NCBI RefSeq assembly: GCF_017355915.2
Contig: NZ_JAFEUV020000002.1
Coordinates: forward strand, 659,662-723,661
Direction of reading: 5' to 3'
Source: Telluribacter roseus
Lineage (GTDB): Bacteria > Bacteroidota > Bacteroidia > Cytophagales > Spirosomataceae
DNA: 64,000 bases
The notes beneath the pieces were generated by a model. The model was not told the DNA's origin. It searched no databases and was given only the letters and a program-made list of their open reading frames with translations. Positions 8,484 to 61,515 of this stretch are shown piece by piece. The translations under genes were made by a program, and so were the position numbers. Every line of letters starts with the position of its first letter. The stretch's first letter is position 1.

Positions 8484-8587
8484 TTCGCAGGCGCGCAAAA
8501 ACTGTCCGATATCGGACAGTTTTTGGCTTATATGGGTCTGTAACATATTGATATACAGAAGGTGTGGCGGACTGGCATAGTGTTGGT
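8484..8587 (+). promoter_or_regulatory. Composite palindrome/sigma-54-like element, copy A
   Basis: A perfect 28-nt palindrome (8497-8524, core CTGTCCGATATCGGACAG, A5/T5 flanks) has its centre at 8510.5. A TTGATATACAG motif ends at 8558, and after 14 nt comes TGGCATAGTGTTGGT (8573-8587), close to the sigma-54 -24/-12 consensus. A GTTCG half-site lies at 8483-8487. It precedes the permease at 8807 and also follows the outer-membrane protein gene, where the palindrome could end transcription. Confidence 0.65.
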
Positions 8588-8664
8588 GCAGAGACAGGTG
8601 TGTATTACGTCTGGAAGGTACAAAGGGAGAAAAAGAGGAATGTGCCGAAGGTAACGTCTTTACA

Positions 8665-8745
8665 GGCCTGTGGAAACACAGGCCATGGATAAAGAGACCC
8701 AGGCATGCACCGGGCAAGGTACCTAAGGCCTGTGAGACACTGGCC
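8665..8745. repeat. Two GGCCTGTG...CA(C)NGGCC hairpins
   Basis: GGCCTGTG-GAAA-CACAGGCC occupies 8665-8684 and a degenerate copy lies at 8727-8745. A third relative is at 43914-43933. They lie in the leader between copy A of the promoter-like element and the first permease gene. This ~200-nt leader contains no gene. Confidence 0.6.
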
Positions 8746-8806
8746 CTGGATAAGGGACTATAAAACGTAAAAAAGCCTATAGCCTAAAGCATACAGCCTA
8801 TCGCTT

Positions 8807-11203
8807 ATGATTGTCAACTACCTCAAAATAGCCTGGCGGTACTTATGGAAAAACCAGTGGCTGACGCTGATTAACCTGATGAGTCTGGCCGTTGGCTTGA
8901 CGAGCTGTTTGCTGATCGGGCTGTACATTAGCCACGAACTGGCCTACGACCAACACCACGTCCGGCAGCAGGAGGTGTACCGGCTGGTGGCTGATCGCAA
9001 CTACACTAACGGTGAGCAGAAGAAGTATGCTACCGCTCCGGTACCCCTGGCGCAGCTGGTTCAGCAGGAGCTACCCGAAGTAGTACAAACTACGCAGGTA
9101 TTCAGCCCGCAGTGGACTACGCAGAAGACCCTGGTGGCTTCCGGTCCTGACCGTACTTTTTACGAATCAGACCTCATATTTGCTGACTCCACTTTCTTTC
9201 AGGTATTAGGTGGCTATGCATTCATAGCGGGTCAGCCGGCCACGGCTCTGCTGCGCCCTAGTTCGGTGGTACTGACCGAGCGCGCCGCGCAGAAGTACTT
9301 TGGTAACCAGGACCCACTGGGGCAGAAGCTGACTCTGGATGGAAAATACGAGGTTGAAGTAACGGGAGTACTACGTGATAGCTATTCGCCTTCACACCTG
9401 GAGGCGGACATCATCGCTTCGTTTGATATTGTAAAGGAGAAGTACAGCGATATGCTCTCACTCTGGGGCTGGGACCTGACTTATACCTACTTGGTAGTTA
9501 GTCCGGGCAGCCGCCCGGAAGTACTTTCTCAGAAGGTGGCCGGGCTGGTCAGTAAGCACCTGCCGGACTTTAAAGAAATGCGCGGGTACGAGTATGGGTT
9601 TGAGCTACAGCTGTTGACGGACATTCATCTCTACTCCGACCGGCAGTGGGAAGTACAGCCCAACGGCAAGGCTCTCTATGTGAAAGTACTTGGCGTGGTG
9701 GCGGTATTGGTCCTACTGGTATCGTGTATCAACTCTATTAACCTGCAACTGACCCGCCTGTCGCGCCGGCTCGTGGAGATGAGCGTCAGGAAGGTACTTG
9801 GCGCGGGTCGTACCCAGCTCCCCCTGCAACTGCTGATGGAGGCCGCATTGCTCACCACCATAGCTCTGGTACTGACGGCTCTGTTTAGCTGGCTGGCCCT
9901 GCCCTGGCTCGAGCGGCTAACCGGAGAGTCATATAGCGAGGCGCTCCTGATAAGTACCGAATACAACGGGTTGGTAGTAGCGGGCATTGGAGTAATCATT
10001 GTGGCGGTAGGGCTACTGCCCGCGCGCTTCATTGCCCGGTTGAACCTGGCTGCGACCTTGAAAAATGGCTTGACCACCACCCGCTCACTCACCTGGCTGC
10101 ACAAGGGCCTGCTGGTTGGGCAGTTTTCGGTTTCGGTATTTCTGCTGATCGCCTCGCTGGTATTGTACCGCCAGCTGGACCACTGGCAGAGCCAGCCGCT
10201 GGGCTTTGAGAAGGAATCCGTCCTGATTGTGAAAGGGTACGGTAGCAATGAACAGTTACCGGTCCTGAAAGAGGCATTTCGCTCCATCAAAGGTGTCGGA
10301 AAGGTAGCGGCGGCTTCCGGTGTGCCGGGTAGCACCATTGAGAAAATGCGGGTGATCTGGGAGGGGCAGTCGGAGCCGCGACCGGTGGATATGCTGTGGG
10401 TAGATGAGGACTTCGTAAGTACCCTCGGCATCGGTCTGGCCGCCGGACGCGATTTCTCTACCCGCTTTGGTACCGATACGACCGACGCCTACCTCATCAA
10501 CGAAACCGCCGCCCGCACCCTGGGCTGGCAGCAGCCCCTGGGTAAGCAGGTACAGGTAGGAGGGCGCTTCGCCCCCAAAGGCAAGGTAGTAGGCGTCATC
10601 AAAGATATTCACCATGCCTCACTGCACCAGACCGTGGAGCCCCTGGTGATGCTGGTACGGCCCAGCGGCTATAGCCAGCTGGTGGTACGGGTACAGGGGC
10701 CGGTAGGTACCGTTATTACCGATCTCGAGAAAGCCTGGAAGCGGGTGGTACCTAACCAGCCCTTTGAATATGATTTTCTGGACCAGCAGCTCGCCCGGCA
10801 GTACCGGCGTGAGCTGGTATTCGGCGAGGTCGTAGTGGTATTTACCCTGCTGGCGGTACTCATTGCCTGCATGGGCCTGTTTGGCTTGTCGGCGCTGATG
10901 GCCGAGCAGCGTACGAAGGAGATTGGTGTCCGCAAGGTACTGGGAGCCAGTGTGGCCGGTATCGTGGCGCTGCTTTCCAGAGACTTTCTGGTGCTGGTAC
11001 TCGTCGCTATCGCAGTAGCCTCGCCGCTGGCCTGGTGGGCCATGGACCAGTGGCTGCAGAACTTCGCCTACCACATCACGGTGGAGTGGTGGCTGCTACT
11101 CGTAGCCGGACTGGTAGCTATTGCGGTCGCGTTATTGACAATAGGCCTACAAGGAGTCAAAGCCGCCCTGATGAATCCGGTGCGCACGCTCAGGAGCGAG
11201 TAA
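8807..11203 (+). CDS. FtsX/MacB-type ABC permease, paralogue 1
   Basis: This 798-residue membrane protein has the duplicated layout shared by all 15 permeases here: first TM helix (~20-42), periplasmic MacB_PCD domain (~50-270), FtsX TM block (~285-455), second periplasmic domain (~480-665), second FtsX block (~675-785). The central cytoplasmic coupling segment is EMSVRKVLGAG near residue 324, where the usual Gly is replaced by Ser. The C-terminal one is QRTKEIGVRKVLGAS near 701. No ATP-binding domain is present, so it needs a separate ATPase. It opens the first array and follows composite element copy A. Cargo unknown. Confidence 0.93.
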   Translation: MIVNYLKIAWRYLWKNQWLTLINLMSLAVGLTSCLLIGLYISHELAYDQHHVRQQEVYRLVADRNYTNGEQKKYATAPVPLAQLVQQELPEVVQTTQVFSPQWTTQKTLVASGPDRTFYESDLIFADSTFFQVLGGYAFIAGQPATALLRPSSVVLTERAAQKYFGNQDPLGQKLTLDGKYEVEVTGVLRDSYSPSHLEADIIASFDIVKEKYSDMLSLWGWDLTYTYLVVSPGSRPEVLSQKVAGLVSKHLPDFKEMRGYEYGFELQLLTDIHLYSDRQWEVQPNGKALYVKVLGVVAVLVLLVSCINSINLQLTRLSRRLVEMSVRKVLGAGRTQLPLQLLMEAALLTTIALVLTALFSWLALPWLERLTGESYSEALLISTEYNGLVVAGIGVIIVAVGLLPARFIARLNLAATLKNGLTTTRSLTWLHKGLLVGQFSVSVFLLIASLVLYRQLDHWQSQPLGFEKESVLIVKGYGSNEQLPVLKEAFRSIKGVGKVAAASGVPGSTIEKMRVIWEGQSEPRPVDMLWVDEDFVSTLGIGLAAGRDFSTRFGTDTTDAYLINETAARTLGWQQPLGKQVQVGGRFAPKGKVVGVIKDIHHASLHQTVEPLVMLVRPSGYSQLVVRVQGPVGTVITDLEKAWKRVVPNQPFEYDFLDQQLARQYRRELVFGEVVVVFTLLAVLIACMGLFGLSALMAEQRTKEIGVRKVLGASVAGIVALLSRDFLVLVLVAIAVASPLAWWAMDQWLQNFAYHITVEWWLLLVAGLVAIAVALLTIGLQGVKAALMNPVRTLRSE

Positions 11204-13798: not shown

Positions 13799-13841
13799 CC
13801 GGGAGCCTTTCCGTCTAACGAATAAACTAGCGCCCAGCAGC

Positions 13842-13945
13842 GTCCGTACTTGAACAAAACTGTCCGATTTCGGACAGTTTTGTTTTATTAAATTACCTTA
13901 ATTGGTTGGTAATCAGTTGTTATACTAGACTGGCATAGGGTTGGT
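13842..13945 (+). promoter_or_regulatory. Composite palindrome/sigma-54-like element, copy B
   Basis: A 32-nt inverted repeat (13853-13884, AACAAAACTGTCCGA-TT-TCGGACAGTTTTGTT) has its centre at 13868.5. An AATCAG motif ends at 13916, again 47.5 nt from the centre, then after 14 nt TGGCATAGGGTTGGT at 13931-13945. A GTCCG half-site lies at 13842-13846. It drives, or lies in front of, the permease at 14080. Confidence 0.65.
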
Positions 13946-13986
13946 ATATCGGGAGGTGAACAGTATAAGGAATAAAAGGTACAAAA

Positions 13987-14064: not shown

Positions 14065-14079
14065 TTCAAAAAAACAGCC

Positions 14080-16509
14080 ATGATACAAAATTACCTCAAA
14101 ATAGCCTGGCGTAACCTGCAGAAGCACCGGTTCTACTCGTTCCTGAACATTTTTGGACTGTCGCTGGGGCTGGCGAGCTGCCTGCTCATCACGCTGTACG
14201 TGATAGATGAGTTGAGTTACGACCGGTTCTTTGATAAGGCCGACCGGATTTACCGCGTAGATGCGGACATCAAATTTGGTGGGCCGGAGATGAAGCTGGC
14301 CGTAGCCCCCGATCCCATGGCTTTTACCATCAAGATAGACTACCCGCAGGTAGAGGCGGCTACGCGCCTGCGTGAGAATGGAAGCTATTTGGTCAGACGA
14401 ACCGGGCAAACCGGAAATATCAGGGAAGATAAAGTAACGTTTGCGGACTCTACCTTCTTTGATGTATTCTCGATACCCATGGTGGCCGGTGACCCCAAAA
14501 CGGCCCTGACCGAACCGAATACACTGGTGCTTTCGGAGCGGGCTGCCAGGAAGTACTTTGGCAACGAAAGCCCCCTTGGTAAGACACTCCTGCTGGATAA
14601 TGAGCATACTTACCGCGTGACGGGCGTCATGACTACCATACCGTCCAACTCGCATCTGGCGGACCTGAATATGCTGCTCTCCATGGCCTCACGGGCCGAA
14701 AGTCGCCAGAACAACTGGGGCGCCCATAATTTTTCGACCTACCTGGTACTGCAGGAGGGGGTAAAGGGGGCACAGTTTGCCAGGAACCTCGAAACTATAC
14801 TCGAAAAATACACAGGTCCTTGGGTAAAGGGGTTTATGGGGTCTTCGCTGGATGATTTAAAAAAAGCCGGCAACTACATCCGCTACTCACTTATACCCAT
14901 TACTGATATTCACCTGCACTCCGACCGGATGGCGGAGTTGAGCGTCAACGGTAACATCCAGTACGTCTACATATTCTCGGTGATCGCGGTATTCCTGCTG
15001 CTGATTGCCTGCGTCAACTTTATGAACCTGGCCACGGCCCGCTCGTCCAACCGGGCGCGTGAGGTAGGTGTACGTAAGGCCCTGGGGTCGGAGCGCTCGT
15101 CACTGGTAGCTCAGTTTCTGACGGAGGCCATGCTGCTGAGCTTTATTTCTTTAGCGCTGGCGCTGGTACTGGCTTACCTGGCGATGCCGTTTTTTAATCA
15201 GCTGGCCAGCAAACAGCTGGAAGTACCAACCGTGAGTCCGTACTTCTGGGCCATACTGCTGATGACCGGGGCCGGGGTAGGGCTGCTGGCGGGTAGTTAT
15301 CCGGCTTTCTTCCTGTCGGGTTTTCAGGCCATCAAGGTACTCAAAGGAAAGCTGGTCCTGGAGGGTCGGGGCGGACAGCTACGTAATACGCTGGTGGTGT
15401 TCCAGTTCATGATTTCGGTGATGCTGATTATCGGTACCATCGTTATCTTCCGGCAGCTCAACTACATCCAGACCAAAACACTGGGATTCAATAAAGAACA
15501 GGTACTGCTGATTGACAACGCCTACGCCCTCGGTACCCAGACGGATGCCTTCAAGCAGGAAACCCTTAACCTGCCGCAGGTAGAGAGTAGCACCATTTCG
15601 TACTACATGCCTACGCCCTCCTCCCGCAGCGACAATACCTTCTATCCGGAAGGGCAGCAGCAGGACAAAGGCATGAGCATGCAGAACTGGCCCGTAGACC
15701 ACGACTACGTCAGGACCCTGAATCTTGAGATTGTGGCAGGGCGGGATTTCAGCCGTGACTTTCCATCCGATTCGCTCGGAATGCTGGTCAATGAGTCGGC
15801 GGTAAAGCTGCTTGGCTTTACAGGCAACCCCATCGGAAAGAAAGTAATGACTCTCTTTGGCCCAAATCCTGAAGACCAGATAGCCTATACCATCATTGGC
15901 GTGGTGAAGAACTTCCACTACGAGTCGCTGCGCAAAAACATAGGTCCGGTGAGTATGGTACTGGGCCGCAGTCCGGGTATTATCGCTCTGAAACTAAAAA
16001 CAGACGACATGATGGCCAGCGTAGCCAGCGTCGAGCAACTCTGGAAGCGAATGGCTCCGGGGCAGCCGTTTGAGTACCGCTTCATGAACGATGATTTTGA
16101 TAAGGAGTACCGCGCCGAGCAGCGCGTGGGCCAGATCTTCGTCACCTTCGCTCTGTTATCTATCCTGATCGGATGCCTGGGCCTGTTCGGTCTGGCGGCC
16201 TATACGGCCGAGCGCCGTACCAAGGAGATCGGGGTGCGCAAGGTACTCGGTGCTTCTATTGGAGATATCGTAACCATGCTCTCGCGCGACTTCATGAAGC
16301 TGGTACTGATCGCTATTGTCATAGCCTCACCCATAGCCTGGTACGCCATGAACCGCTGGCTCAGTGACTTCGCCTTCAAGGTTGATATCCAGTGGTGGAT
16401 ATTCGTAGCGGCCGGTCTGCTGGCCGTAGGTATTGCTCTGCTGACGGTAAGTTTCCAAAGTATCAAAGCCGCCCTGATGAATCCGGTAAAGTCATTGAAA
16501 TCGGAGTAA
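14080..16509 (+). CDS. FtsX/MacB-type ABC permease, paralogue 3
   Basis: The 809-residue permease has coupling motifs AREVGVRKALGSE near residue 327 and ERRTKEIGVRKVLGAS near 711. Before the middle TM block it carries the segment DIHLHSDRMAELSVNGNIQYVYIFS, also present with small changes in paralogues 6, 14 and 15, which form its nearest subgroup by eye. It has its own copy of the composite promoter-like element (copy B) 135 bp upstream, so transcription may restart here within the array. No ATPase domain; cargo unknown. Confidence 0.93.
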   Translation: MIQNYLKIAWRNLQKHRFYSFLNIFGLSLGLASCLLITLYVIDELSYDRFFDKADRIYRVDADIKFGGPEMKLAVAPDPMAFTIKIDYPQVEAATRLRENGSYLVRRTGQTGNIREDKVTFADSTFFDVFSIPMVAGDPKTALTEPNTLVLSERAARKYFGNESPLGKTLLLDNEHTYRVTGVMTTIPSNSHLADLNMLLSMASRAESRQNNWGAHNFSTYLVLQEGVKGAQFARNLETILEKYTGPWVKGFMGSSLDDLKKAGNYIRYSLIPITDIHLHSDRMAELSVNGNIQYVYIFSVIAVFLLLIACVNFMNLATARSSNRAREVGVRKALGSERSSLVAQFLTEAMLLSFISLALALVLAYLAMPFFNQLASKQLEVPTVSPYFWAILLMTGAGVGLLAGSYPAFFLSGFQAIKVLKGKLVLEGRGGQLRNTLVVFQFMISVMLIIGTIVIFRQLNYIQTKTLGFNKEQVLLIDNAYALGTQTDAFKQETLNLPQVESSTISYYMPTPSSRSDNTFYPEGQQQDKGMSMQNWPVDHDYVRTLNLEIVAGRDFSRDFPSDSLGMLVNESAVKLLGFTGNPIGKKVMTLFGPNPEDQIAYTIIGVVKNFHYESLRKNIGPVSMVLGRSPGIIALKLKTDDMMASVASVEQLWKRMAPGQPFEYRFMNDDFDKEYRAEQRVGQIFVTFALLSILIGCLGLFGLAAYTAERRTKEIGVRKVLGASIGDIVTMLSRDFMKLVLIAIVIASPIAWYAMNRWLSDFAFKVDIQWWIFVAAGLLAVGIALLTVSFQSIKAALMNPVKSLKSE

Positions 16510-44601: not shown

Positions 44602-44607
44602 CCGCCC

Positions 44608-48596: not shown

Positions 48597-48608
48597 CAGA
48601 CAGTAACT

Positions 48609-48713: not shown

Positions 48714-48800
48714 ATGAGTAATGACAGTAAAATTATTAATGGAGGGACGCAACCTCAGCGAGTTATTAATCATCCTTAAAAAAATAACTAACCAATAACC

Positions 48801-49838: not shown

Positions 49839-49868
49839 CAACTACTTATAGCGTGTTTTTGAGGCTTG

Positions 49869-49971
49869 TTCGCCTATGAACAAAAGTGTCCGATATCGGA
49901 CACTTTTGTTTTTTATGGGTATGCTAAATGCTTGATTTACAGCTAGAATTGCATATTGGCATAGCTTTTAG
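49869..49971 (+). promoter_or_regulatory. Composite palindrome/sigma-54-like element, copy C
   Basis: A perfect 32-nt palindrome (49879-49910, core GTGTCCGATATCGGACAC with AACAAAA/TTTTGTT flanks) has its centre at 49894.5. TTGATTTACAG ends at 49942, 47.5 nt away, and after 14 nt TGGCATAGCTTTTAG follows at 49957-49971; here the -12 half is the weakest of the five. It precedes the permease at 50091. Confidence 0.65.
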
Positions 49972-50090
49972 TACTAGTAAGGTACCTGTCAGGTGGAACA
50001 GTGTACGTAATTTCCATCTATTAGCCATGAATTTTTGATGAACAGGAGAAGCTAAAAGTAAGTACCTACCAGCTAACTACCTAAACCGCC

Positions 50091-52502
50091 ATGATCCTTA
50101 ACTACTTCAAAATCGCCTGGAGAAATCTGCTTAGAAATCAGACGTACGCGCTGCTTAATATAGGAGGTCTTTCGCTGGGCTTAGCCTGTGCTCTGCTGGT
50201 GTTCTGGTTTATCCGGTTCCAGACAACCCACGACGACTACCATACCAACATCGACCGTATCTATCAGGTCACGACTGAGTTCAGGTTTGATGGTAGCAGC
50301 TACTCACGGGGAGTACCTACTCCTATGTGGAAGGCCATGCGTACCGAACTGCCCAAACTGACTACCGGTATGTGCCTGGGCGCTTATGACCTGCTGCTGG
50401 CTACGCTGGATGCGAATGGAAAACCCCAGAAGAAGTTCAAAGAGGAAGGGCCGAAGTCGGCCTATGTACAGCCTGAGTACTTCTCTATTTTTGATTATAC
50501 CTGGCAGGTAGGCAACGCCAAGCAGGCGCTGAGCAAGCCCAATACCATTGTACTGAGTGAGCGGATGGCGGAGAAGTACTTTGGTAAGGAAAATCCCATC
50601 GGAAAAATCATTCGTCTGGAAAACCAGCTGGACCTGGAAGTAACAGGTATTGTCGGTAATCCACGTGAAAATACAAACCTGCCCTACGAGTTTTTTGTGT
50701 CCTTTGAGACCCTTCCGGCCAACCCTAAGTTCAGACACGGAGGCTCCGATCTGGAACACTGGGGAGGCGTTAACTCCAATACCTTTTGTTTTACCCTGCT
50801 TCCTGAAAACGTAAGTGCGGCGTACGTTCAGAAGCAGCTGGAAATGATCAACAAGAAGTACCACGGCGAAAACGACTATAAGTCATACTTTCACCACCTG
50901 GTCCCTTTCCGCGAAATACACCACTCCGAGACCTACTACGGCTCTATGCCCATGAAGTGGATCTGGATCATGGGGGCTATCGGTCTGTTTCTGATTGTGA
51001 CCGCCTGCTTCAACTTCATCAATATGGCTACGGCGCAGGCGATGCGGCGCTCCAAAGAAGTAGGGGTACGCAAGTCCATCGGTGGTACCAAGAGCCAGGT
51101 ATTTGTTCAGTTCCTGATCGAAACTACCCTCATCACCCTGGCTGCTATGGTTGTGGGATTGGGTATAGCGGCCAGTATCCTGCCCAATGCCAGCGAATGG
51201 CTCGAACAACCCGGCGCCTGGCCTACCAGCGTGGCCTGGTCCGATGCTATGCTGTGGCTGTTTCTGGCCGGGTTGCTGGTCGTAGTAGTGCTGCTGGCGG
51301 GCTCCTATCCGGGGCTGATCCTGGCGGGCTTCCGTCCGGTACTTGCCCTGAAAGGCTCCGTCACTACCCGTCATATCGGCGGTATGTCGGTACGCCGGGG
51401 CCTGATCGTATTTCAGTTTGTGCTGATCCAGTTGCTGGTAATCTGTACGCTGGTGGTCAATAACCAGGTGGACTTCATGCTGAATAAATCCGTCGGATAC
51501 GAGACCAAAGGCATTGTACAGGTACCAATACCCGCTCCTGACAAGATCAACCAGGCTACCTTCCGCGAAAGACTACTGACCATACCCGGTGTCGCCGACG
51601 CTTCGTTCTGCCTGTTTATGCCAACTGATCAGTCCGCCAATACAACGAATTTCCGGTACGATACCCGCCAGAAGGACGAAGTATGGCAGATCAGTACCAA
51701 AAACGCAGATCACAACTACATCAAAACATTTGGTCTGCAGCTCGTAGCCGGCCAGAACATACCTCAGAGTGACACCACCCGGGGGTACCTGATCAACGAA
51801 AAGGCCGTAGAGCGTCTGGGGCTGAAAAGTCCGAACGAAGCCCTCGGCAAGACCCTGCGTGTCTGGGGCAAGCCCGCACCCATCTATGGTGTACTCAAAA
51901 ACTGGAACAATACCTCTTTCCAGAACGATATCGATCCCATAGCGATATTTACCTGGAAGGATATTCATCATAGCTGCGGCATAAAGCTCAAGGCCGCTAA
52001 CCTGCAGCAGACCATGAAGGACGTAGAGAAGCTGTGGAACGAGTACTTTCCCGACCACCTCTACGAGCAGCACTTCCTGGACGACCGAATTGCCGAAAGC
52101 TACCAACTGGAAAAGATCATGCTGAAGCTCATCCGGGTGTTTTCGCTGATCGCTATCTTTATCGGCTGCCTGGGCTTGTACGGTCTGGTGAAGTTTATGG
52201 CCTCTCAGAAGACCAAGGAGATTGGTGTCCGGAAGGTACTAGGCGCCAGCCTGACGAGTATACTTTCTCTTTTTGGTAAAGAAATCGCGCTCCTTATCGT
52301 CGTTGCTTTTGTGATAGCCGCACCGGCGGGGTGGTACATGATGCAGTCCTGGCTGGAAGACTATTCCTACAAGATACCCATTGGAGCCGGCATTATGCTG
52401 CTGGCCATCGCACTGACGTTCCTGGTTGCCGTAGTCACTGCCAGCTATGAATCCATGAAAGCCGCCCTGGCCAACCCGGTAAAGTCACTACGATCTGAAT
52501 AA
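50091..52502 (+). CDS. FtsX/MacB-type ABC permease, paralogue 12
   Basis: The 803-residue permease opens the second array behind composite element copy C. Coupling motifs are SKEVGVRKSIGGT near residue 322 and SQKTKEIGVRKVLGAS near 706, with Lys replacing the usual Arg of QRTKE. It pairs by eye with paralogue 13, sharing NPIGK(I/T)IRL, SWGG/HWGG-VNS/FSG, QKTKEIGVRK and a LFGKE segment before the last TM helices. The tail is ALANPVKSLRSE, with Ala for Met. Confidence 0.93.
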   Translation: MILNYFKIAWRNLLRNQTYALLNIGGLSLGLACALLVFWFIRFQTTHDDYHTNIDRIYQVTTEFRFDGSSYSRGVPTPMWKAMRTELPKLTTGMCLGAYDLLLATLDANGKPQKKFKEEGPKSAYVQPEYFSIFDYTWQVGNAKQALSKPNTIVLSERMAEKYFGKENPIGKIIRLENQLDLEVTGIVGNPRENTNLPYEFFVSFETLPANPKFRHGGSDLEHWGGVNSNTFCFTLLPENVSAAYVQKQLEMINKKYHGENDYKSYFHHLVPFREIHHSETYYGSMPMKWIWIMGAIGLFLIVTACFNFINMATAQAMRRSKEVGVRKSIGGTKSQVFVQFLIETTLITLAAMVVGLGIAASILPNASEWLEQPGAWPTSVAWSDAMLWLFLAGLLVVVVLLAGSYPGLILAGFRPVLALKGSVTTRHIGGMSVRRGLIVFQFVLIQLLVICTLVVNNQVDFMLNKSVGYETKGIVQVPIPAPDKINQATFRERLLTIPGVADASFCLFMPTDQSANTTNFRYDTRQKDEVWQISTKNADHNYIKTFGLQLVAGQNIPQSDTTRGYLINEKAVERLGLKSPNEALGKTLRVWGKPAPIYGVLKNWNNTSFQNDIDPIAIFTWKDIHHSCGIKLKAANLQQTMKDVEKLWNEYFPDHLYEQHFLDDRIAESYQLEKIMLKLIRVFSLIAIFIGCLGLYGLVKFMASQKTKEIGVRKVLGASLTSILSLFGKEIALLIVVAFVIAAPAGWYMMQSWLEDYSYKIPIGAGIMLLAIALTFLVAVVTASYESMKAALANPVKSLRSE

Positions 52503-52615
52503 TAGGGAAGAGGAGGAAAGGAGGAAAGTGTCGAAAGTGTTTTTCTCCCTTCTTTTTTCCACAAAGCGGCCTCCCTTCCTCCTTTTCTCCATTCGAACCT
52601 TTTATCCTTTAGCAA
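52503..52615. repeat. Purine/pyrimidine spacer, GTGTCGAAAGT version
   Basis: GGGAAGAGGAGGAAAGGAGG, then AAAGTGTCGAAAGTG, then CTCCCTTCTTTTTTCC and CTTCCTCCTTTTCTCC, then ATTCGAACCTTTTATCCTTT. The open frame through it upstream of 52621 is not a convincing extension of the next gene. Confidence 0.6.
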
Positions 52616-52620
52616 TAGCC

Positions 52621-55014
52621 ATGATCAAGAATTACTTAAAAATCGCCTTTCGGAACCTGAAGCGACACAAGGCCTACGCCATCATCAACGTAGCGGGCCT
52701 GGCTATGGGTATTACCTGTGCCATCCTGATCTTTACGCTGGTCAGGTACCACCTGAGCTACGATACCTTTCATGCCCAGAGCGACCGGATCTACCGGGTT
52801 ATTTCGGAGTTTCATAGCGAAGAGATCAGCTACTCCAGCGGCGTACCGCAGCCCCTGGGCAAGGCCTTCCGCAATGACTACACCTTTGCCGAGAAAGTAG
52901 CCCGCGTCGCTGTCTACCAGAATCAGCTGCTGTCGCTGCCGCAGTCACGCGACAATAAGAAGTTTCAGGAAGAGCAGGGGGTAGCGTACGCCGAACCTGA
53001 GTTTCTCGATGTCATGAGCTTCCCCCTGGTGCAGGGAGATAAGAAAACTGCTCTTGCCGAACCCAATACAGCGGTAGTTACCCAAAAAATAGCCAATAAG
53101 TACTTTGGCAATGAGAATCCCATCGGCCAGACCATCCGTCTGGACAACCGCTTCGACTTCAAGGTAACGGGCGTACTGCAGGACCTGCCCGCTACGACGG
53201 ACCGCCGCCAGGAGATATACCTTTCGTACGCCAATCTGAAAGACCAGAACGCCTGGCTGGCCGGTGATGAAAGCTGGGGCGGTGTATTCAGCGGGTTGAA
53301 CTGCTTTGTGCTCCTGAAGCCGGGTGTCACCCAGGCTATGGTGGAGAAGGCACTGCCGTCGATGTCCAGGAAGTACTACGATGCCGAGGGCGCCAAGGTG
53401 TTCCGGTTTAAGCTGCAGCCCATTGCCGATATGCACTTCAACCCCGACCTGGACGGCTACGTAGAGAAGAAAAACCTGTGGGCTCTGTCGCTGGTAGGAC
53501 TGTTCCTGATTATTACGGCCTGCGTTAATTTTATCAATCTGGCTACGGCTCAGGCACTCACCCGGGCCAAAGAGATTGGGGTGCGTAAGGTACTGGGTAG
53601 CCTGCGGGCGCAGCTATTCTGGCAATTTATCTCCGAAACGGCTCTGATCACCGCTTTTGCGACCGGTATTGCTTTCGGACTGGCGCATCTGGCGTTGCCC
53701 TTTGCCAACCAGCTCTTCGAATCCCAGATGACCATCAACCTCCTTCAGGACTACTACCTGCTGGGCTTTCTGGTGGTACTGCTGGTGATGGTGGTATTCT
53801 TCTCGGGCTCGTATCCGGGGCTGATTCTGGCCGGCTTCCAGCCGATGCAGGCGCTGAAAGGCAAGCTGGCTCAGAAACACGTGGGAGGCTTCACGCTGCG
53901 CCGCGGACTGGTGATCACGCAGTTTGCCATCTCACAGATCCTGATCATTGGGACCATTGTCATAGCCGACCAGATGCGGTACTCGCAGGAGTCGGATCTG
54001 GGCTTCAATAAGGATGCGGTAGTGATGCTGCCCGTACCGGTACGGGATCAGGCCAAGCTGAGTACGCTGCGCAGTCGGGTGGAGCAGGTAGCAGGCGTGA
54101 ACGAAAGTGCCTTTTGCTTCCAGGCACCCGCAGCGGGTGCCAACCTGAATACCGGCCTGCGCTACGATACCCGTACCGAAGACGAAGTGTTTTCAATCAA
54201 CATGAAAGTAGCCGATAGCAAGTACCTGTCCACCTTTGATCTGCAACTCGTAGCGGGCCGTAATATAGTGCCATCAGATACCGTGCGTGAGTTTGTGGTG
54301 AACGAAACACTCGTAAAGAAACTGGGGGTGAAGTCGCCGGAGGAGGTGATCGGCAAGCAGCTCAGCGTCAACGGTGGTACCATGACGGCTCCGATCGTAG
54401 GGGTAGTGAAGGACTTTTATAACTACTCCTTCCGTACCGACATCAGCCCCGTATGCATCATGTCCGATATCAGCCGGTATCAGAACTATGCTGTGAAGGT
54501 GAACACCAGTAACCTGCAGCCTACCCTGGCGGCCATCGAAAAGGTATGGAGCGAGACGTTCCCGGAGTATGTCTATCAGCACGAGTTTCTGGATGAGCGC
54601 ATTGCCGAGTTCTATGCTATTGACTCCATCATGCTCCAGCTGATCCAGTTCTTCGCCGGAGTAGCCATCTTTATCGGTTGTCTGGGCTTGTACGGTTTGA
54701 TTTCGTTCATGGCGGTACAGAAGACCAAGGAGATCGGGGTACGCAAAGTACTGGGTGCCAGTGTGGAGAATATTCTGTGGCTATTCGGAAAAGAGTTTGC
54801 ACGGCTGGTCATCATCGCCTTTGTGCTGGCGGCTCCGATGGCCTGGTGGGTCATGAACAAGTGGCTCTCGGAGTTCAAGTACAAGATTGAAGTAGGCGTT
54901 GGCATATTTGCTCTGGCTATTGCGGCTACGCTCCTTATTGCCGCGCTTACGGTAGGGTACCGTTCACTACGCGCCGCCCTGATGAACCCCGTACGCTCGC
55001 TCAGGAGTGAGTAA
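52621..55014 (+). CDS. FtsX/MacB-type ABC permease, paralogue 13
   Basis: The 797-residue permease has coupling motifs AKEIGVRKVLGSL near residue 317 (EIG, not EVG, in the central copy) and VQKTKEIGVRKVLGAS near 700. ATG 52621 gives the standard MIKNYLKIAFRNLKRHKAYA start; the frame stays open upstream to 52528 but only through spacer repeat. It is the sister of paralogue 12 and its tandem neighbour, separated by a spacer of the purine/pyrimidine type, so a recent local duplication is likely. Confidence 0.93.
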   Translation: MIKNYLKIAFRNLKRHKAYAIINVAGLAMGITCAILIFTLVRYHLSYDTFHAQSDRIYRVISEFHSEEISYSSGVPQPLGKAFRNDYTFAEKVARVAVYQNQLLSLPQSRDNKKFQEEQGVAYAEPEFLDVMSFPLVQGDKKTALAEPNTAVVTQKIANKYFGNENPIGQTIRLDNRFDFKVTGVLQDLPATTDRRQEIYLSYANLKDQNAWLAGDESWGGVFSGLNCFVLLKPGVTQAMVEKALPSMSRKYYDAEGAKVFRFKLQPIADMHFNPDLDGYVEKKNLWALSLVGLFLIITACVNFINLATAQALTRAKEIGVRKVLGSLRAQLFWQFISETALITAFATGIAFGLAHLALPFANQLFESQMTINLLQDYYLLGFLVVLLVMVVFFSGSYPGLILAGFQPMQALKGKLAQKHVGGFTLRRGLVITQFAISQILIIGTIVIADQMRYSQESDLGFNKDAVVMLPVPVRDQAKLSTLRSRVEQVAGVNESAFCFQAPAAGANLNTGLRYDTRTEDEVFSINMKVADSKYLSTFDLQLVAGRNIVPSDTVREFVVNETLVKKLGVKSPEEVIGKQLSVNGGTMTAPIVGVVKDFYNYSFRTDISPVCIMSDISRYQNYAVKVNTSNLQPTLAAIEKVWSETFPEYVYQHEFLDERIAEFYAIDSIMLQLIQFFAGVAIFIGCLGLYGLISFMAVQKTKEIGVRKVLGASVENILWLFGKEFARLVIIAFVLAAPMAWWVMNKWLSEFKYKIEVGVGIFALAIAATLLIAALTVGYRSLRAALMNPVRSLRSE

Positions 55015-55105
55015 AGGAGGAAAGGTAATAAGGGAGGAAAGTGCCGAACGTGTTTTTCTTTTCTCCCTTCCTGCTTTCCTCCCTTCATACCTTTTATTCT
55101 TATCA
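55015..55105. repeat. Purine/pyrimidine spacer, GTGCCGAACGT version
   Basis: GGAGGAAAGGTAATAAGGGAGG, then AAAGTGCCGAACGTG, then TCTCCCTTCCTGC and TTTCCTCCCTTCATACCTTTTATTC. Block order is the same as at 52503. Confidence 0.6.
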
Positions 55106-55114
55106 ACAAAGCTC

Positions 55115-57559
55115 ATGCTCCAGAACTACCTCAAAATCGCCTGGCGGAACCTGTTGAAAAACAAGGTGAACACCGCTATCAATATCATCGGATTATCCAT
55201 CGGCATGGTCTGCTGCATCCTGATTGTGATGTATGTGTCTGATGAATTGAGCTATGACCGTTACTGGCCCCAAGGGGAGCGCATCTACCGGATGGCACTG
55301 GAGCGCAAGTACCCCGACCGCGTCACGAAGTACGCCATTATTCCTGCATCGTACGCGCAGGATGTCAAGCGCGAGCTTCCGGAGGTAGAGGAGGTAGTAC
55401 GTATGGTACCCTTCGGCGGGGACGGGGTAGGTACCCTCATGAAGTACCAGGGGCAGGTGCTGGAAGAGAAGAATGTATTGGCGGCTGATTCTACCTTTTT
55501 TAACGTATTCAAGGTGCCACTGCTGCAGGGACAAGCGGCTCAGGTCCTGAGTCGGCCCAATACCGTAGTACTCAGCAGAAGTACCGCCGAGCGTCTTTTT
55601 GGAAAAGTGGATCCGGTGGGCAAAACCCTGGAAATAGTAGACGGCCCCCAACTGGAGGTAACGGGAGTAGCCGAAGATCTGCCCGACAATGTTCACTTTG
55701 ACTTCGACTTTGTGATAAGCCTGAAAGGCTTTCCCTTTGCGGAGCAGGAAAACCACACCAGCTTTTCGGTACTTACGTACCTGTTGCTGAAGCCTAATAC
55801 TGACGCTCAGGTAGTAGAAAGCAAGCTGCCGGCGCTGGTGGAGAAGTACGCCGCCGGTGAGGTACAGCGTAGTTTTGGGGTATCGTACCAGGAGTACGTC
55901 AGGGCAGGCAACGGCTACTACTACTTCCTGCAGCCCGTACGGAATATTCACCTGGATTCCAACCTGGAAGCCGAGCTGAAACCCAACGGCAATCGTACGC
56001 TGGTGTACATCTTCTCGGTGATTGCCGTATTTGTACTGCTGATCGCCTGTATCAATTTCATGAATCTGGCTACGGCGCGTTCGTCGGAGCGGGCGCGTGA
56101 GGTAGGTATCCGCAAAGCCCTGGGCTCCAACAAGAGCCAGCTGGCTACGCAGTTCCTGACCGAGTCGGTGCTGCTGAGCTTTTTCAGTTTCCTGCTGTCG
56201 CTTTTGCTGGTAGGTATACTACTGCCTTTCTTCAACAATCTGGCGGGTAAGCAGCTCTCAACCCTGTTTCTGCTACGGTGGGATACCGCGCCCTTCATGC
56301 TGTTGCTGGCCCTGCTGATCGGCCTGGTGGCAGGCAGCTATCCGGCGGGGGTACTTTCGTCGTTTGAACCCATCAAAGTACTTAAGGGAAGATTCATGTC
56401 GACCCGGCAGGGGCATCTGCTCCGCAACGGACTGGTGGTGTTTCAGTTTTCAATATCTATTATCCTGATCATTTGTACGCTGGTCGTACTGACGCAGCTA
56501 CGCTATATCCAGAACAAAGAGCTGGGCTTCACCAAAGAAGCCGTGGTTAATCTGCAGGGAGCGGGCTCTCTGGGACCTAAGACGGAGGCTTTTAAGCAGG
56601 AGTTGGGGCGGATAGCGGGTGTGCAGGCCGTAGGAGGTACCAACGCTACCCCCGGTACTCAGGGGGGATTCTTCGGTATTATTTTCCGGAAAGAGGCCGA
56701 AACTGAAACTGTGACGGGTAGGGGTACTGTAGTGGACGATAACTACCTGCAGGCTATGAATATAAAGCTGGTAGCCGGGCGCGGTTTCTCTAAGTCTTTC
56801 AATGATTCTTTATCAGTCCTCATTAACGAGGAGGCGGTTAGGGAACTGGGCCTGACCGATCCCGTTGGCAAAAAGCTGATTAGTCCGGGGAATTTTGGTC
56901 AGGCCAATGGTGCCGATGTGACGTATACTATCGTGGGAGTCATCAAGAACTTCCACTACCAGTCACTGCACCAGCGCATAGCACCGCTGTTTGTGCTCAA
57001 CGATCGCTGGTTTAACCGCAGCAACAGTCAGATCGTTATGCGTATTCAGGCTGATGATCCGCAGGCCATCGTGGCCCAGGCCGGCAAGGTCTGGAAGAAG
57101 TACCTGCCCGAGCAACCCTTCCACTACTCCTTCCTGGATTCGGACTGGGGTGCCCTGTACCGGGCCGAGCAGGTATCGCAGCGTATATTTAGCCTGTTTT
57201 CGTTCCTGGCTATTCTGATTGCCTGCATGGGGCTGCTGGGACTGGCGATCTATATCATACAGCAGCGAACCAAAGAGATCGGTATCCGGAAGGTATTGGG
57301 CGCGTCAGTAGCCAGTATCGTAGCTATGCTCTCTCAGGACTTTATGAAGCTGGTACTACTAGCTCTGGTCATTGCGGCACCCGTGGCGTGGTACGCTATG
57401 GATCGCTGGCTGCAGGACTTCGCCTACCGCATCGATATACCCTGGTGGGCCTTTGTACTGGCAGGTGTACTGGCCGTGCTCATAGCCTTTCTGACGGTAA
57501 GCTACCAGTCCATTAGAGCCGCCCTCATGAATCCGGTGCGCTCGCTAAGGAGCGAGTAA
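55115..57559 (+). CDS. FtsX/MacB-type ABC permease, paralogue 14
   Basis: The 814-residue permease has coupling motifs AREVGIRKALGSN near residue 328 and QQRTKEIGIRKVLGAS near 716. By eye it belongs with paralogues 3, 6 and 15 (NIHLDSNLEAELKPNGNR, YIFSVIAVFVLLIACINFMNL). ATG 55115 gives MLQNYLKIAWRNLLKNK; the open frame further upstream (to 55007) overlaps the previous gene end and is spacer. The C-terminal block has CMGLLGLAIYI where most have CLGLFGLAAF. Confidence 0.93.
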   Translation: MLQNYLKIAWRNLLKNKVNTAINIIGLSIGMVCCILIVMYVSDELSYDRYWPQGERIYRMALERKYPDRVTKYAIIPASYAQDVKRELPEVEEVVRMVPFGGDGVGTLMKYQGQVLEEKNVLAADSTFFNVFKVPLLQGQAAQVLSRPNTVVLSRSTAERLFGKVDPVGKTLEIVDGPQLEVTGVAEDLPDNVHFDFDFVISLKGFPFAEQENHTSFSVLTYLLLKPNTDAQVVESKLPALVEKYAAGEVQRSFGVSYQEYVRAGNGYYYFLQPVRNIHLDSNLEAELKPNGNRTLVYIFSVIAVFVLLIACINFMNLATARSSERAREVGIRKALGSNKSQLATQFLTESVLLSFFSFLLSLLLVGILLPFFNNLAGKQLSTLFLLRWDTAPFMLLLALLIGLVAGSYPAGVLSSFEPIKVLKGRFMSTRQGHLLRNGLVVFQFSISIILIICTLVVLTQLRYIQNKELGFTKEAVVNLQGAGSLGPKTEAFKQELGRIAGVQAVGGTNATPGTQGGFFGIIFRKEAETETVTGRGTVVDDNYLQAMNIKLVAGRGFSKSFNDSLSVLINEEAVRELGLTDPVGKKLISPGNFGQANGADVTYTIVGVIKNFHYQSLHQRIAPLFVLNDRWFNRSNSQIVMRIQADDPQAIVAQAGKVWKKYLPEQPFHYSFLDSDWGALYRAEQVSQRIFSLFSFLAILIACMGLLGLAIYIIQQRTKEIGIRKVLGASVASIVAMLSQDFMKLVLLALVIAAPVAWYAMDRWLQDFAYRIDIPWWAFVLAGVLAVLIAFLTVSYQSIRAALMNPVRSLRSE

Positions 57560-57691
57560 TGAAGAATGTATAATTAAAAATGTATAATTGCTACTATGTG
57601 TAGGTACCTGCTTTAGCGACGAACTCCTTGTAGCGCACGTTCAACAAAGAGCTAATAGCTAACACCTAACAGCTAACCACCTAACCTAGCC

Positions 57692-60136
57692 ATGATCCAA
57701 AACTATATCAAAATAGCCTGGCGGAACCTGATCCGCAACCGTGCCTTCACCGCCATCAATATCGTGGGGCTGGCCCTGGGACTGGCGACCTGCCTGCTGA
57801 TCGGCTTGTTTGTGTTTAACGAATTGAGCTATGACCGCTACCACGAGAAAGCCGATCGTATCGTACGGGTGGTATTCAGAGGTACCATGAACGGAGAAAA
57901 AATGCGGGAAGCCAACGTGATGGCACTCGTGGCCCAAGTCCTGCGCAACGACTACCCGGAGGTACTGGACGCTACCCGCCTCAGAACCGGCGGGGTACCA
58001 CGCATTACCTACGGCGACCGGACTTTCAAGGAAGAAGCCTTTGCCTTTGTGGACTCTAACTTCTTTCAGGTATTTACGCTGCCTCTGCTCAAAGGGGATG
58101 CCCGTACGGCGCTGGTACAGCCCAATACTGTAGTCATATCGGAGAAGGTAGCTCGCAAGTACTTCGGCGATGCTGACCCCATCGGCAAGGTACTAACCAT
58201 CAAAGATTCCCAGGCCTCCTATACCGTTACCGGCGTTTTTGACAAGGTACCGGCCAACTCACACTTTCACATGGACCTGTTTGCCTCCATGGCAAGCGTG
58301 CCGGAGTCCCGCCAGCCCAACTGGCTTGTGTCGGGATACTTCACCTATCTGGTACTGCCCGAGGGCTATAACTACCGCCAGCTCGAAGCCAAGCTGACGC
58401 GTGTGGTGGAAACACACATGGGACCGGCCCTGGAGAAGCTGATCGGGATTGGCCTGACGGAGTTCCGTAAGAAGGGCAATGACATTGGCCTGTATCTCCA
58501 GCCCCTGACCGACATCCACCTCCGCTCCGACTTCAAAGCCGAAACCGAAATAGAACCCGGCGGTGATATCCGGTACGTATACCTGTTTGCGGCTATTGCG
58601 TTGTTTATGTTGCTGCTGGCCTGTATCAACTTCATGAATCTCTCCACGGCCGGTGCCTCCAGGCGGGCCAAGGAAGTAGGTATCCGTAAAGTAATGGGCT
58701 CCGAGAAGAGCCGGCTGATAGGTCAGTTTCTGGTGGAGTCTATTCTGCTCACGGGGCTGTCACTCGTGCTGGCGATTGCAATCGTATACCTGGCTCTGCC
58801 TTTCTTCAATGATCTGTCGGGCAAGGAACTGGATCTTGACCTGCTGCGTACCCCCTGGACCCTGGTGGGGCTGGTCTTGTTCGGCCTGCTGGTGGGGGCG
58901 CTGGCGGGGAGCTATCCGGCCTTTTTCCTCTCGTCGTACAAACCCATTTCTATTCTTAAAGGAGGTACTACCGGCCGTGTAGTAAGTCGCGGTAGCATCG
59001 GTTTGCGGAGTAGCCTGGTGGTCTTTCAGTTTTTTGTTTCCATTACCCTCATCATCGGTACTACGGTAGTATACCGGCAGCTCCGCTACATCCAGAATAT
59101 AAAGCTGGGCTACGACAAGGAGCAGGTACTGGTAATCAACGAAACCTGGACGCTGGGCCGTAACGAAGAGGTACTACGCCGCCAGCTTCTGCAGGATACC
59201 CGGGTCACCAGCGCCAGTATTTCGGGCTTTTTGCCGGCCGGGTCGCCTAATAACGGCATCCTGTCGCTGTACCCGGATGGTAACGATGCGCAGCTCTTCC
59301 GGATGGGCTACTTTGGGGTAGATTACAACTACATCCCGACTCTGGGCATAAAGCTGGTGGCTGGCCGTAACTTCTCACCGGAGTTTCTGACTGATTCGTC
59401 GGCAGTGATCATCAACGAAGCGGCGGTAAGGACGTTTGGCTGGCACAAAGGGGCCCTAGGCAAGACCCTGACGAATCCGGGCGTACTGCTCAGTTCGGGT
59501 CAGAACAAGGTATACCGGGTAGTTGGGGTAGTGAAAGATTTCCATTACCGTTCGCTGCACGAGGAAATAGCCCCTATGGTGATGGCACTGGGTGACAACT
59601 CTGGCTCAATTATCGTCAAAGCCAGGACGCAGGATATGGCCGATCTGCTGGCTTCGATCAAAGAGAAGTGGGAGGGATTCGGAACCGGCGAACCCTTTCG
59701 ATATTCGTTCCTGGACGAAAGTTACCAGGCTACCTACCAGGCTGAGCTCAGAACCGGCCGCATCCTAGCCCTTTTTGCCGGACTGACGATCTTCGTAGCC
59801 TGTCTGGGGCTGTTCGGGCTGGTGAAGTTCGCAACCGAGCAGCGTGTCAAGGAGATTGGCGTTCGCAAGGTATTGGGCGCCAGTGTGGCCAGTATCGTGA
59901 CCCTGCTTTCCCTGGATTTCCTTAAGCTGGTAGTAATCGCCATTGTCATTGCAACGCCCGTGGCCTGGTACGCCATGGACCTCTGGCTGCAGGACTTCGC
60001 CTACAAGATCACTATGAGCTGGTGGATGGTGGTGGTAGCGGTCGTAGTGACAGTAGCCATTGCACTACTGACTATCAGCTTCCAAAGCATCAGGGCCGCC
60101 CTGGTCAATCCGGTGAAGAGCCTGAAGAGCGAATGA
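57692..60136 (+). CDS. FtsX/MacB-type ABC permease, paralogue 15
   Basis: The 814-residue permease is the last of the second array. Coupling motifs are AKEVGIRKVMGSE near residue 327 and EQRVKEIGVRKVLGAS near 716, the only copy with Val in place of the Thr of QRTKE. It has the DIHLRSDFKAETEIEPGGDIR segment of the 3/6/14 subgroup and the tail ALVNPVKSLKSE. A MITE-like element lies 45 bp downstream, the same arrangement as after paralogue 5. Confidence 0.93.
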   Translation: MIQNYIKIAWRNLIRNRAFTAINIVGLALGLATCLLIGLFVFNELSYDRYHEKADRIVRVVFRGTMNGEKMREANVMALVAQVLRNDYPEVLDATRLRTGGVPRITYGDRTFKEEAFAFVDSNFFQVFTLPLLKGDARTALVQPNTVVISEKVARKYFGDADPIGKVLTIKDSQASYTVTGVFDKVPANSHFHMDLFASMASVPESRQPNWLVSGYFTYLVLPEGYNYRQLEAKLTRVVETHMGPALEKLIGIGLTEFRKKGNDIGLYLQPLTDIHLRSDFKAETEIEPGGDIRYVYLFAAIALFMLLLACINFMNLSTAGASRRAKEVGIRKVMGSEKSRLIGQFLVESILLTGLSLVLAIAIVYLALPFFNDLSGKELDLDLLRTPWTLVGLVLFGLLVGALAGSYPAFFLSSYKPISILKGGTTGRVVSRGSIGLRSSLVVFQFFVSITLIIGTTVVYRQLRYIQNIKLGYDKEQVLVINETWTLGRNEEVLRRQLLQDTRVTSASISGFLPAGSPNNGILSLYPDGNDAQLFRMGYFGVDYNYIPTLGIKLVAGRNFSPEFLTDSSAVIINEAAVRTFGWHKGALGKTLTNPGVLLSSGQNKVYRVVGVVKDFHYRSLHEEIAPMVMALGDNSGSIIVKARTQDMADLLASIKEKWEGFGTGEPFRYSFLDESYQATYQAELRTGRILALFAGLTIFVACLGLFGLVKFATEQRVKEIGVRKVLGASVASIVTLLSLDFLKLVVIAIVIATPVAWYAMDLWLQDFAYKITMSWWMVVVAVVVTVAIALLTISFQSIRAALVNPVKSLKSE

Positions 60137-60434: not shown

Positions 60435-60573
60435 AATGTATAATGGGAAGGAAGACAGCAAGCTTACAGCCTATTGCATATAGCTTACAGCTTTTTTCAG
60501 ACCCATGCAACCTTTGCCCTGTATCCACCATCTGTTGAGTAAATCACATCAGATACTTAAAACTCGTAACGCC

Positions 60574-61374
60574 ATGAAAACCACATTTTCCTACTTCTTT
60601 TCGCTTGCGCTGGTAGCCCTGCTGGCCGTGTCGGCCACGGCCCAGTCTACGCTTTCGGCCAAAGAAATCATTCAGAACATTGACCGGAAGTTCGCGGTCG
60701 AGGTTAACAACAAAACCATCGAAGGGGACCTGGACCTGACGGAGCTGTCGAATAAGGAGCTGAAAAAACGCGGAAACATGGATACCCGCGAGTACAAGAG
60801 CCGCGTGGAGGTACCTATCACTTTTCGTAACTGTACCTTCAGGGGTGATGTAGTGGCCTACAAGGTGGTAGGCAAAGACGGAAAAAGACGCGGCCTGCTG
60901 GGAAGTGTCATGAACAACGATGGCGATGACCAGACACTCTACACGGCTGACTTCAAGGAAGCCGTTGTATTTGAGAACTGTACCTTTGAGGGACTGGCCG
61001 AATTTAAGTACTCTGACTTTGCCGAAAAGGTATCCTTTGCGGACAGTAAGTTCCGGCACCAGGCCAACTTCAAGTATGCTAAGTTTAACGAAGGTGCCCG
61101 ATTTGCCAATGTGGATTTTACGGATTCGGCCAACTTCAAGTATGCCAAGTTCAGCGATGAGGCTAATTTTGCCAATACCCGTATCAGCCAGGTAGCTGAC
61201 TTCAAGTACGCCAATTTTCAGGATGGCGTTACCTTTAAGGGTACCCACTTCCAGGGCTACGCCGACTTCAAGTACACCGACTTCAAGCGCGAGGGCGACC
61301 TGAGCCAGGTAACATTCAGCCGGGGCAGTGACTTCAAATACGCCAAAGGCAGCCGTTATATATCTACCAATTGA
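60574..61374 (+). CDS. Exported repeat protein with 22-residue FKY repeats (pentapeptide-repeat-like)
   Basis: The 266-residue protein has a signal peptide (LALVALLAVSATAQ) and then pentapeptide-like (A/x)(N/D/x)F repeats. From residue ~144 FKY(A/S/T) recurs every 22 residues exactly six times, with further Phe at fixed places within each unit. A right-handed beta-helix with a Phe-Lys-Tyr ladder on one face is the natural model. ATG 60574 starts the signal peptide; the upstream frame to 60505 is leader. It lies between the second permease array and the ATPase gene. Confidence 0.82.
   Translation: MKTTFSYFFSLALVALLAVSATAQSTLSAKEIIQNIDRKFAVEVNNKTIEGDLDLTELSNKELKKRGNMDTREYKSRVEVPITFRNCTFRGDVVAYKVVGKDGKRRGLLGSVMNNDGDDQTLYTADFKEAVVFENCTFEGLAEFKYSDFAEKVSFADSKFRHQANFKYAKFNEGARFANVDFTDSANFKYAKFSDEANFANTRISQVADFKYANFQDGVTFKGTHFQGYADFKYTDFKREGDLSQVTFSRGSDFKYAKGSRYISTN
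61003..61368 (+). repeat. 66-bp in-frame repeats (FKY units)
   Basis: FKY codons begin at 61003, 61069, 61135 and every 66 bp after that, ending with an incomplete unit near the stop. The usual pentapeptide helix turn is 20 residues, so 22 is unusual. Confidence 0.8.
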
Positions 61375-61410
61375 TAGGCGATTCCATTGTAAATACTCCT
61401 GATATTTGTG

Positions 61411-61515
61411 CCGTCCGAATTCGTACAAAAGTGTGCGATTTCGGACGGTTTTTTGTGTCTAAATAGGCATAAATGGCTGTATATCAGCAAAGGCAAGTTC
61501 TGGTATGCAATTTGA
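61411..61515 (+). promoter_or_regulatory. Composite palindrome/sigma-54-like element, copy E
   Basis: The palindrome variant GTGTGCGATTTCGGACGG (61431-61448, centre 61439.5) is followed by GTATATCAG ending at 61487, 47.5 nt from the centre. After 13 nt (14 in other copies) comes TGGTATGCAATTTGA at 61501-61515. CCGTCCGAA (61411-61419) is also an inverted partner of TTCGGACGG. It lies 35 bp before the ABC ATPase gene. Confidence 0.6.

Follow-up and report, generated by a model that had tools for sequence, protein, structure and literature searches.

What function is served by five short stretches of DNA that share a palindrome, a CAG motif and a promoter-like core at constant distances, and that precede genes for permeases, a DUF4097 protein and an ABC ATPase? 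The five lie in a 64,000-nt segment of the Telluribacter roseus genome (G000:C2:659662-723661; hereafter, the window), whose right end coincides with the end of the contig. Judging from sequence, we consider it very probable that they are sigma-54 promoters of one regulon under one NtrC-type two-component activator, likely with a bent spacer between activator sites and core. The support consists of the geometry, the tandem operators, a third palindrome, the core, the genes for an activator and a kinase beside the same operators, the recurrence of the layout in relatives, and the targets.

Layout of the five composite elements

The five 16-bp palindromes described in the initial annotation were all recovered, on the + strand, with starts at 8503, 13861, 48629, 49887 and 61432. 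These proximal operators have the form TGTCCG-N4-CGGACA, with perfect 6+6 arms in three of five and mismatches in those at 48629 and 61432. At 20-21 bp before each (centre to centre) is an upstream operator of the form TGTYCG-N4-YGNACA, degenerate except at 49887. The GT(T/C)CG half-site previously placed 22-24 nt upstream of the palindrome centre is present, but is really one arm of this second, degenerate 16-bp operator. Similarly, the CAG motif has the geometry claimed for it, its last G falling exactly 47.5 nt from the proximal palindrome centre at all five sites; however, it is not a stand-alone motif but the right-hand arm of an inverted repeat of 11 bp, and TAA-N4 precedes that repeat, again at all five sites. 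We refer to this repeat as the third element. Lastly, TGG (GGG at 48629) starts 53-54 nt past the end of the proximal operator at every site. The initial annotation had assigned GGYAT-G...TTGG to all five; the TGG/GGG part holds throughout, whereas TTGG is present only at 8503, 13861 and 48629, the corresponding sequence being TTTTAG at 49887 and TTTGA at 61432. All five sites are 27-65 nt 3′ of the stop codon of a preceding + strand gene, and the downstream genes are those originally named: permeases at 8807, 14080 and 50091, the DUF4097 protein at 48801 and the ABC ATPase at 61550.

A relaxed pattern derived from the five sites matches the window exactly five times; a sixth copy is lacking on either strand, and the reversed sequence has no match. 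With a composite score trained on sites from related genomes, the five score 46-60; once alternative readings of these operators are set aside, nothing else in the window exceeds 26.8, and the reversed sequence does not exceed 25.9. The sites (A to E) and their targets are as follows.

8482-8497, + strand: site A upstream operator TGTTCGCAGGCGCGCA, degenerate; its centre 21 bp from that of the proximal operator
8503-8518, + strand: site A proximal operator TGTCCGATATCGGACA; predicted activator site, centre ~88 nt before the predicted start
8541-8558, + strand: site A third element TAACATATTGATATACAG; bottom strand IHF-consensus-like
8573-8588, + strand: site A sigma-54-like core TGGCATAGTGTTGGTG; predicted start ~8599
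8807-11203, + strand: site A target, MacB_PCD/FtsX permease; closest NCBIfam family ADOP, below cut-off
13841-13856, + strand: site B upstream operator CGTCCGTACTTGAACA
13861-13876, + strand: site B proximal operator TGTCCGATTTCGGACA
13899-13916, + strand: site B third element TAATTGGTTGGTAATCAG
13931-13946, + strand: site B sigma-54-like core TGGCATAGGGTTGGTA; predicted start ~13957
14080-16509, + strand: site B target, MacB_PCD/FtsX permease; first in a run of permease genes
48608-48623, + strand: site C upstream operator TGTTCGGCTGCGTACG
48629-48644, + strand: site C proximal operator TGTCCGGTATCGGGCA; also flagged as terminator-like by a scan
48667-48684, + strand: site C third element TAACTATCAGGTTATCAG
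48699-48714, + strand: site C core GGGTATAGTTATTGGA; GGG for TGG, TTG at canonical N8
48801-49838, + strand: site C target, DUF4097 protein
49867-49882, + strand: site D upstream operator TGTTCGCCTATGAACA
49887-49902, + strand: site D proximal operator TGTCCGATATCGGACA
49925-49942, + strand: site D third element TAAATGCTTGATTTACAG
49957-49972, + strand: site D core TGGCATAGCTTTTAGT; -12 part weak
50091-52502, + strand: site D target, MacB_PCD/FtsX permease; three more permeases behind it
61412-61427, + strand: site E upstream operator CGTCCGAATTCGTACA
61432-61447, + strand: site E proximal operator TGTGCGATTTCGGACG; weakest of the five
61470-61487, + strand: site E third element TAAATGGCTGTATATCAG
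61501-61516, + strand: site E core TGGTATGCAATTTGAA; the ATPase gene lies 23 nt beyond the predicted start, ~61527
61550-62212, + strand: site E target, ABC ATPase; closest NCBIfam family darobactin exporter DarD, below cut-off; followed by an OEP gene (62369-63712)

A predicted activator and the recurrence of the composite elements

An NtrC-type activator acting with sigma-54 polymerase had been proposed at the outset, and the genome content supports this prediction. Two rpoN genes are present (Sigma54_DBD, E 4e-56 and 6e-54), as are five strong Sigma54_activat proteins. The search for an activator gene near 64 kb or left of position 1 found a candidate ~28 kb left of the window (G000:C2:630414-631775), encoding a receiver-AAA+-Fis response regulator (PF00072, PF00158 and PF02954; L035:8412-9776), hereafter the enhancer-binding protein (EBP). 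Its Walker A motif is GENGTGKS, and its loop reads GAFTDA in place of GAFTGA, a variant that is listed as being of functional type (PMC4641369). Adjoining the EBP gene is a histidine kinase gene whose product has membrane segments, as read from the sequence, HATPase_c, and a PAS match below the curated cut-off. An operon encoding an HlyD adaptor, an ABC ATPase and a permease runs divergently from the EBP gene, and the region between them contains operators TGTTCGGCAGCGAACA and TGTCCGATAATGAACA, 20 bp apart centre to centre, followed by TACAG and then by TGGCACGGGGATTGG, a near-canonical sigma-54 core. The rpoN genes themselves are at G000:C1:349421, directly preceding a second sigma-54 activator gene and a kinase-like gene, and at C3:28223.

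A palindrome search of the same genome allowing two mismatches is dominated by chance (472 matches, versus 1080 in the control), and hence we used only palindromes with zero or one mismatch and the right neighbours. The exact tandem pattern gives one site only in this genome, because upstream operators are degenerate. A perfect site precedes a permease gene between the EBP gene and the window (C2:645169), and more are found on other contigs, e.g. before a permease at C10:214721. Two further places were left out of the site collection described below: a palindrome on C14 (L022), before a PadR gene and an ADOP-like permease, with a TGGCAAAGGATTTGTA core and without a clear CAG element; and a weaker tandem operator pair at C1:124204 (L007, ~1501-1536), 20 bp apart and ~0.17 kb before a gene for a small secreted protein without a Pfam match.

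The pattern TGTYCG-N4-YGRACA, followed after 52-66 nt by TGGYAY, has 116 matches (114 distinct) in 32 of 59 related genomes, versus 1 for the pattern read backwards; a lack of such genome-wide enrichment had been named beforehand as refuting. Spacing is 52-55 nt in 83 of the 116 and 63-66 nt in 30, with three in between; the class means, 53.4 and 64.6, differ by about one helical turn. Shorter spacings (21-51 nt) give 15 matches versus 9 in the control, including four at exactly 43 nt with a CTGA-type element one turn nearer the operator. Longer spacings (67-97 nt) give 58 versus 3, with peaks at 73-77 (31) and 83-88 (16) that equal the two spacing classes lengthened by the 20-22 nt to the second operator. 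Among the 111 sites in the two classes, 91 have a second operator 3-6 nt upstream, versus 2 at control gaps of 12-15 nt. Behind TGG, TTG is spaced by N8 in 45 and by N7 in 23; any other offset examined has three or fewer, and the -13 position is G in 77.

Recognised targets, labelled with profiles built on this system's own proteins, were found for 82 of the 111 sites: permease (59), HlyD (13), ATPase (4), PadR (4), OEP (1) and DUF4097 (1). An independent Pfam scan of 29 downstream open reading frames (ORFs) from 30 loci returned MacB_PCD 17 times, FtsX 13, HlyD four, ABC twice, and OEP, PadR and DUF3244 once each. The DUF3244 protein stands behind a site of one relative (L076).

EBP relatives (E <=1e-100) occur in 39 of the 59 genomes, and a search of named genomes found them in Dyadobacter, Arundinibacter, Persicitalea, Runella, Larkinella, Chitinophaga and others. 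There are at least 80 EBP loci in named genomes; for the 80 listed, we examined 900 nt upstream of the EBP gene without selection on a promoter motif. Tandem operators reached the operator score at 47, and TGGYAY-N5-T[TA][GA] occurs within the next 100 nt at 43 of these 47, versus none of 47 for the reversed sequence. Spacing to the core is 51-55 nt at 18 of the 43 loci and 62-65 nt at the other 25, although these loci are mutually related, with 19 Dyadobacter-like loci sharing an identical spacing of 65. The HlyD-operon promoters beside the EBP gene read TGGCACGGGGATTGG or TGGCAYAGNGATTGG, with TTG at N8 in 12 of 13. Across the 59 genomes, EBP and element co-occur in 29, the EBP alone is found in 10, the element alone in three and neither in 17 (Fisher P 2e-5); two of the three element-only genomes are just 63 and 66% complete.

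Several observations weigh against a single sigma-54 regulon of this kind. Within the window the -12 part is not ideal: TTG is at canonical N8 from the -24 triplet in the sites at 48629 and 61432, 1 nt closer in those at 8503 and 13861, and absent at 49887. Most of the window's 15 permease genes have no element of their own. In the relatives, 33 of the 80 listed EBP loci fall below the operator score, ten EBP-positive genomes lack a pattern match, and 29 of the 111 sites have no recognised target within 420 nt, some of them on contig ends. Sites of related genomes are also non-independent, and the invariance of TGGYAY among the 111 is no evidence, since it was part of the search pattern. The evidence free of such selection is the position of TTG, the clustering of spacings and the EBP-adjacent loci.

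Since the layout recurs in relatives, mostly before efflux-pump genes and at spacings about one turn apart, we conclude that one predicted two-component activator likely drives this pump family. In the scheme that we propose, the kinase would sense an envelope or drug signal, and the NtrC-type response regulator encoded ~28 kb left of the window would bind TGTCCG-N4-CGGACA. It would occupy the two tandem palindromes, which are centred at about -88 and -109 relative to the predicted start, while a protein of the HU/IHF family may bind and bend TAA-N4-YTGATWATCAR. The activator would then reach RNA polymerase over the likely bent spacer, with RpoN reading the core. Operators just behind co-directional genes may also end the upstream transcript. 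In this way, one activator could switch on a whole family of efflux pumps.

The spacer palindrome and competing explanations

Unsupervised expectation-maximization on 83 spacers yielded TAA-N4-YTGATWATCAR, whose position agrees to within 1 nt in 72 of the 83; its core has a reverse-complement correlation of 0.97. In the short spacing class, 67 of 83 sites have the third element centred 41.5-43.5 nt from the middle of the operator; in the long class this distance is 42.5-44.5 nt in 16 of 28 and 52.5-53.5 nt in five of 28. We conclude from these shifts that either interval, operator to element or element to core, can grow by about one turn.

The consensus of an IHF site is WATCAANNNNTTR. This strict form occurs in the third element on the bottom strand in 16 of 114 sites and on the top strand in 13, versus ~0.45 in shuffles; the relaxed form WATCARNNNNTTR occurs in 33 (bottom; 0.56 in shuffles) and 18 (top; 0.70). 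Two of the five window sites have the consensus on the bottom strand. The bottom strand of the element's left half reads WATCARNNNNTTA, as in an IHF site; unlike the asymmetric IHF consensus, however, the element repeats the ATCAR arm in inverted orientation. Searches of G000 with PF00216 and PF18291 found no IhfA/IhfB pair but a single HU/IHF-superfamily gene, hit by both profiles (L101; G000:C13:42227-42493). Among NCBIfam families its product comes closest to IHF-beta (65.6 bits; cut-off 119.95). PDB chains of HU and of IHF match it about equally well, the two best-ranked entries being single-chain IHF in which two stretches align. Where the aligned IHF and HU chains have the DNA-intercalating proline, this protein has Ile (RNIS for RNPK). 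Given one HU/IHF gene and an IHF consensus in the element, an IHF-like bend made by a homodimer is plausible but unproven, and a palindromic site would suit such a homodimer.

Alternatively, the third palindrome could be the operator of a separate sequence-specific regulator providing a second input, rather than an architectural bend site; we put the chance of this a little below even. The element is strongly palindromic with defined arms, and free copies are common outside the regulon. Allowing one mismatch, TAANNNNYTGATWATCARNNNNTTA occurs 1658 times in the 59 genomes, from 0 to 351 per genome, an unevenness expected of a global regulator. The control gave 14, being the pattern read backwards and thus containing CTA/TAG words, which are rare in bacteria; with permuted palindromes as control and up to two mismatches, 1.0 Mb of other loci showed a smaller excess in the same direction (13 versus a mean of 1.6, maximum 7). 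The palindrome is over-represented in Cytophagales, including genomes without the EBP. Of 39 free copies drawn from three genomes for inspection, 34 are outside called ORFs, and within 60 nt of a copy there is never a sigma-54 core. The element was not evident by eye in Chitinophaga and several more distant EBP loci. The element-plus-core pattern searched without the operator gives 20 matches in 14 of the 59 genomes, versus 0 in the control; of 19 placed matches, 12 have a TGTCCG operator upstream and seven have none or a weak one. The unevenness of the free copies, their lack of a core and the absence of an evident element in Chitinophaga make a separate global regulator nearly as likely as a bend site. 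Set against it are the IHF-consensus matches, the displacement of the element by about one turn relative to operator or core in subsets of sites, and its location between enhancer and core, the place that IHF occupies in the textbook sigma-54 arrangement (PMC7057263, PMC3709507).

A bolder version of the bending model is that a homodimeric HU/IHF-family bender of the Cytophagales uses the palindromic IHF site TAA-N4-YTGATWATCAR-N4-TTA genome-wide, that this site serves as the phase-locked hinge of the sigma-54 efflux-permease regulon, and that the enhancer palindrome also terminates transcription of the upstream gene. We offer this tentatively, and regard it as possible but doubtful.

The core could instead belong to a sigma-A-type Bacteroidota promoter, for which the consensus is TAnnTTTG near -7, and the palindromes could be sites for an ordinary activator. 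Some permease cores, TAGCTTTTG or TAGTGTTG, do resemble TAnnTTTG. However, the HlyD-operon cores beside the EBP gene lack it and disfavour this explanation, the operators adjoin a gene for a sigma-54 activator, and operators near -88 and -109 suit an enhancer rather than a class I or II sigma-A activator. We therefore consider a sigma-A promoter improbable.

The operators have some properties of terminators. Four of the five window sites, all but that at 61432, fold into long hairpins (-16 to -26 kcal/mol) with T-rich sequence behind. Operators after co-directional genes are followed by more T than those after divergent genes (5.17 versus 3.67 of 9, P 5e-4; P 0.013 without EBP-adjacent sites) and fold more stably (-13.5 versus -10.1 kcal/mol, P 0.008); a control window 20 nt further on shows no such difference (T 2.75 versus 3.08). 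A generic terminator scan flags only 48629 of the five, and finds no excess over shuffles in these regions. These data are suggestive of operators behind co-directional genes also acting as terminators, a dual role that is compatible with a sigma-54 regulon. That the palindromes are merely intrinsic terminators of upstream genes, the rest being coincidence, is very unlikely despite the hairpins, the T-rich tracts and the nearby upstream stop codons: such a reading is contradicted, as a sole explanation, by the same palindromes between divergent genes beside the EBP, which have no T-tract and little stem extension, and is opposed by the scan result, the second operator, the fixed geometry to third element and core, and the fixed sequence TGTCCG, which termination does not need.

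Known systems, neighbouring genes and implications

The closest known arrangement is that of E. coli pspA and PspF, where an AAA+ activator has two upstream sites and an IHF-type site separates these from a TGG/TTG core (PMC3709507, PMC7057263). The system described here differs in its Bacteroidota host, its two-component activator, the one-turn spacing steps over more than 100 sites and the palindromic third element, with no heterodimeric IHF pair in G000. A 2025 survey using a sigma-54 position-specific scoring matrix ties FtsX-like permeases (COG0577) to sigma-54 in Bacteroidia, which its authors call first evidence (PMC12316311). The permease family, the class and the predicted sigma-54 control are the same as here; the passages of the survey consulted here describe no activator, operator, or tandem or phased architecture, and its main text names IHF 0 times. 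Our literature search of open-licence papers found no published report of this EBP, operator, phased spacing or third element. The best NCBIfam matches of permease, ATPase and adaptor are to ADOP/MacB permeases and darobactin-type exporters (TIGR03434, NF038007, NF038010), but all are below curated cut-offs, and permease and ATPase genes are often apart here.

The 15 MacB/FtsX-type permease genes of the window (~800 aa) lie at 8807-38254 and 50091-60136, mostly in tandem runs, and far outnumber the ATPase genes. Within the permease region are nqrA-F, for an Na+-translocating NADH:quinone reductase, and an ApbE gene (39675-46910). At the left of the window, 165-3356 encodes, consecutively, an extracytoplasmic function-type sigma factor, a zf-HC2/HEAT protein (possibly an anti-sigma factor) and two DUF4097 proteins; a penicillinase-repressor-like gene and then a BlaR1-type M56 peptidase gene follow at 3796-5903.

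A regulon of this kind would place FtsX/MacB permeases, whose very large expansion in Bacteroidota is mostly unexplained, under one sensor-activator pair, and such a pair would offer a way to find out which signals the pumps answer. The one-turn spacing clusters, coming from natural promoters, bear on how strict the mutual orientation of a short-range enhancer and sigma-54 polymerase has to be. Should the third element prove to be an IHF-type bend site, it would raise the question of site-specific DNA bending in a phylum whose HU/IHF protein can be a single homodimer.

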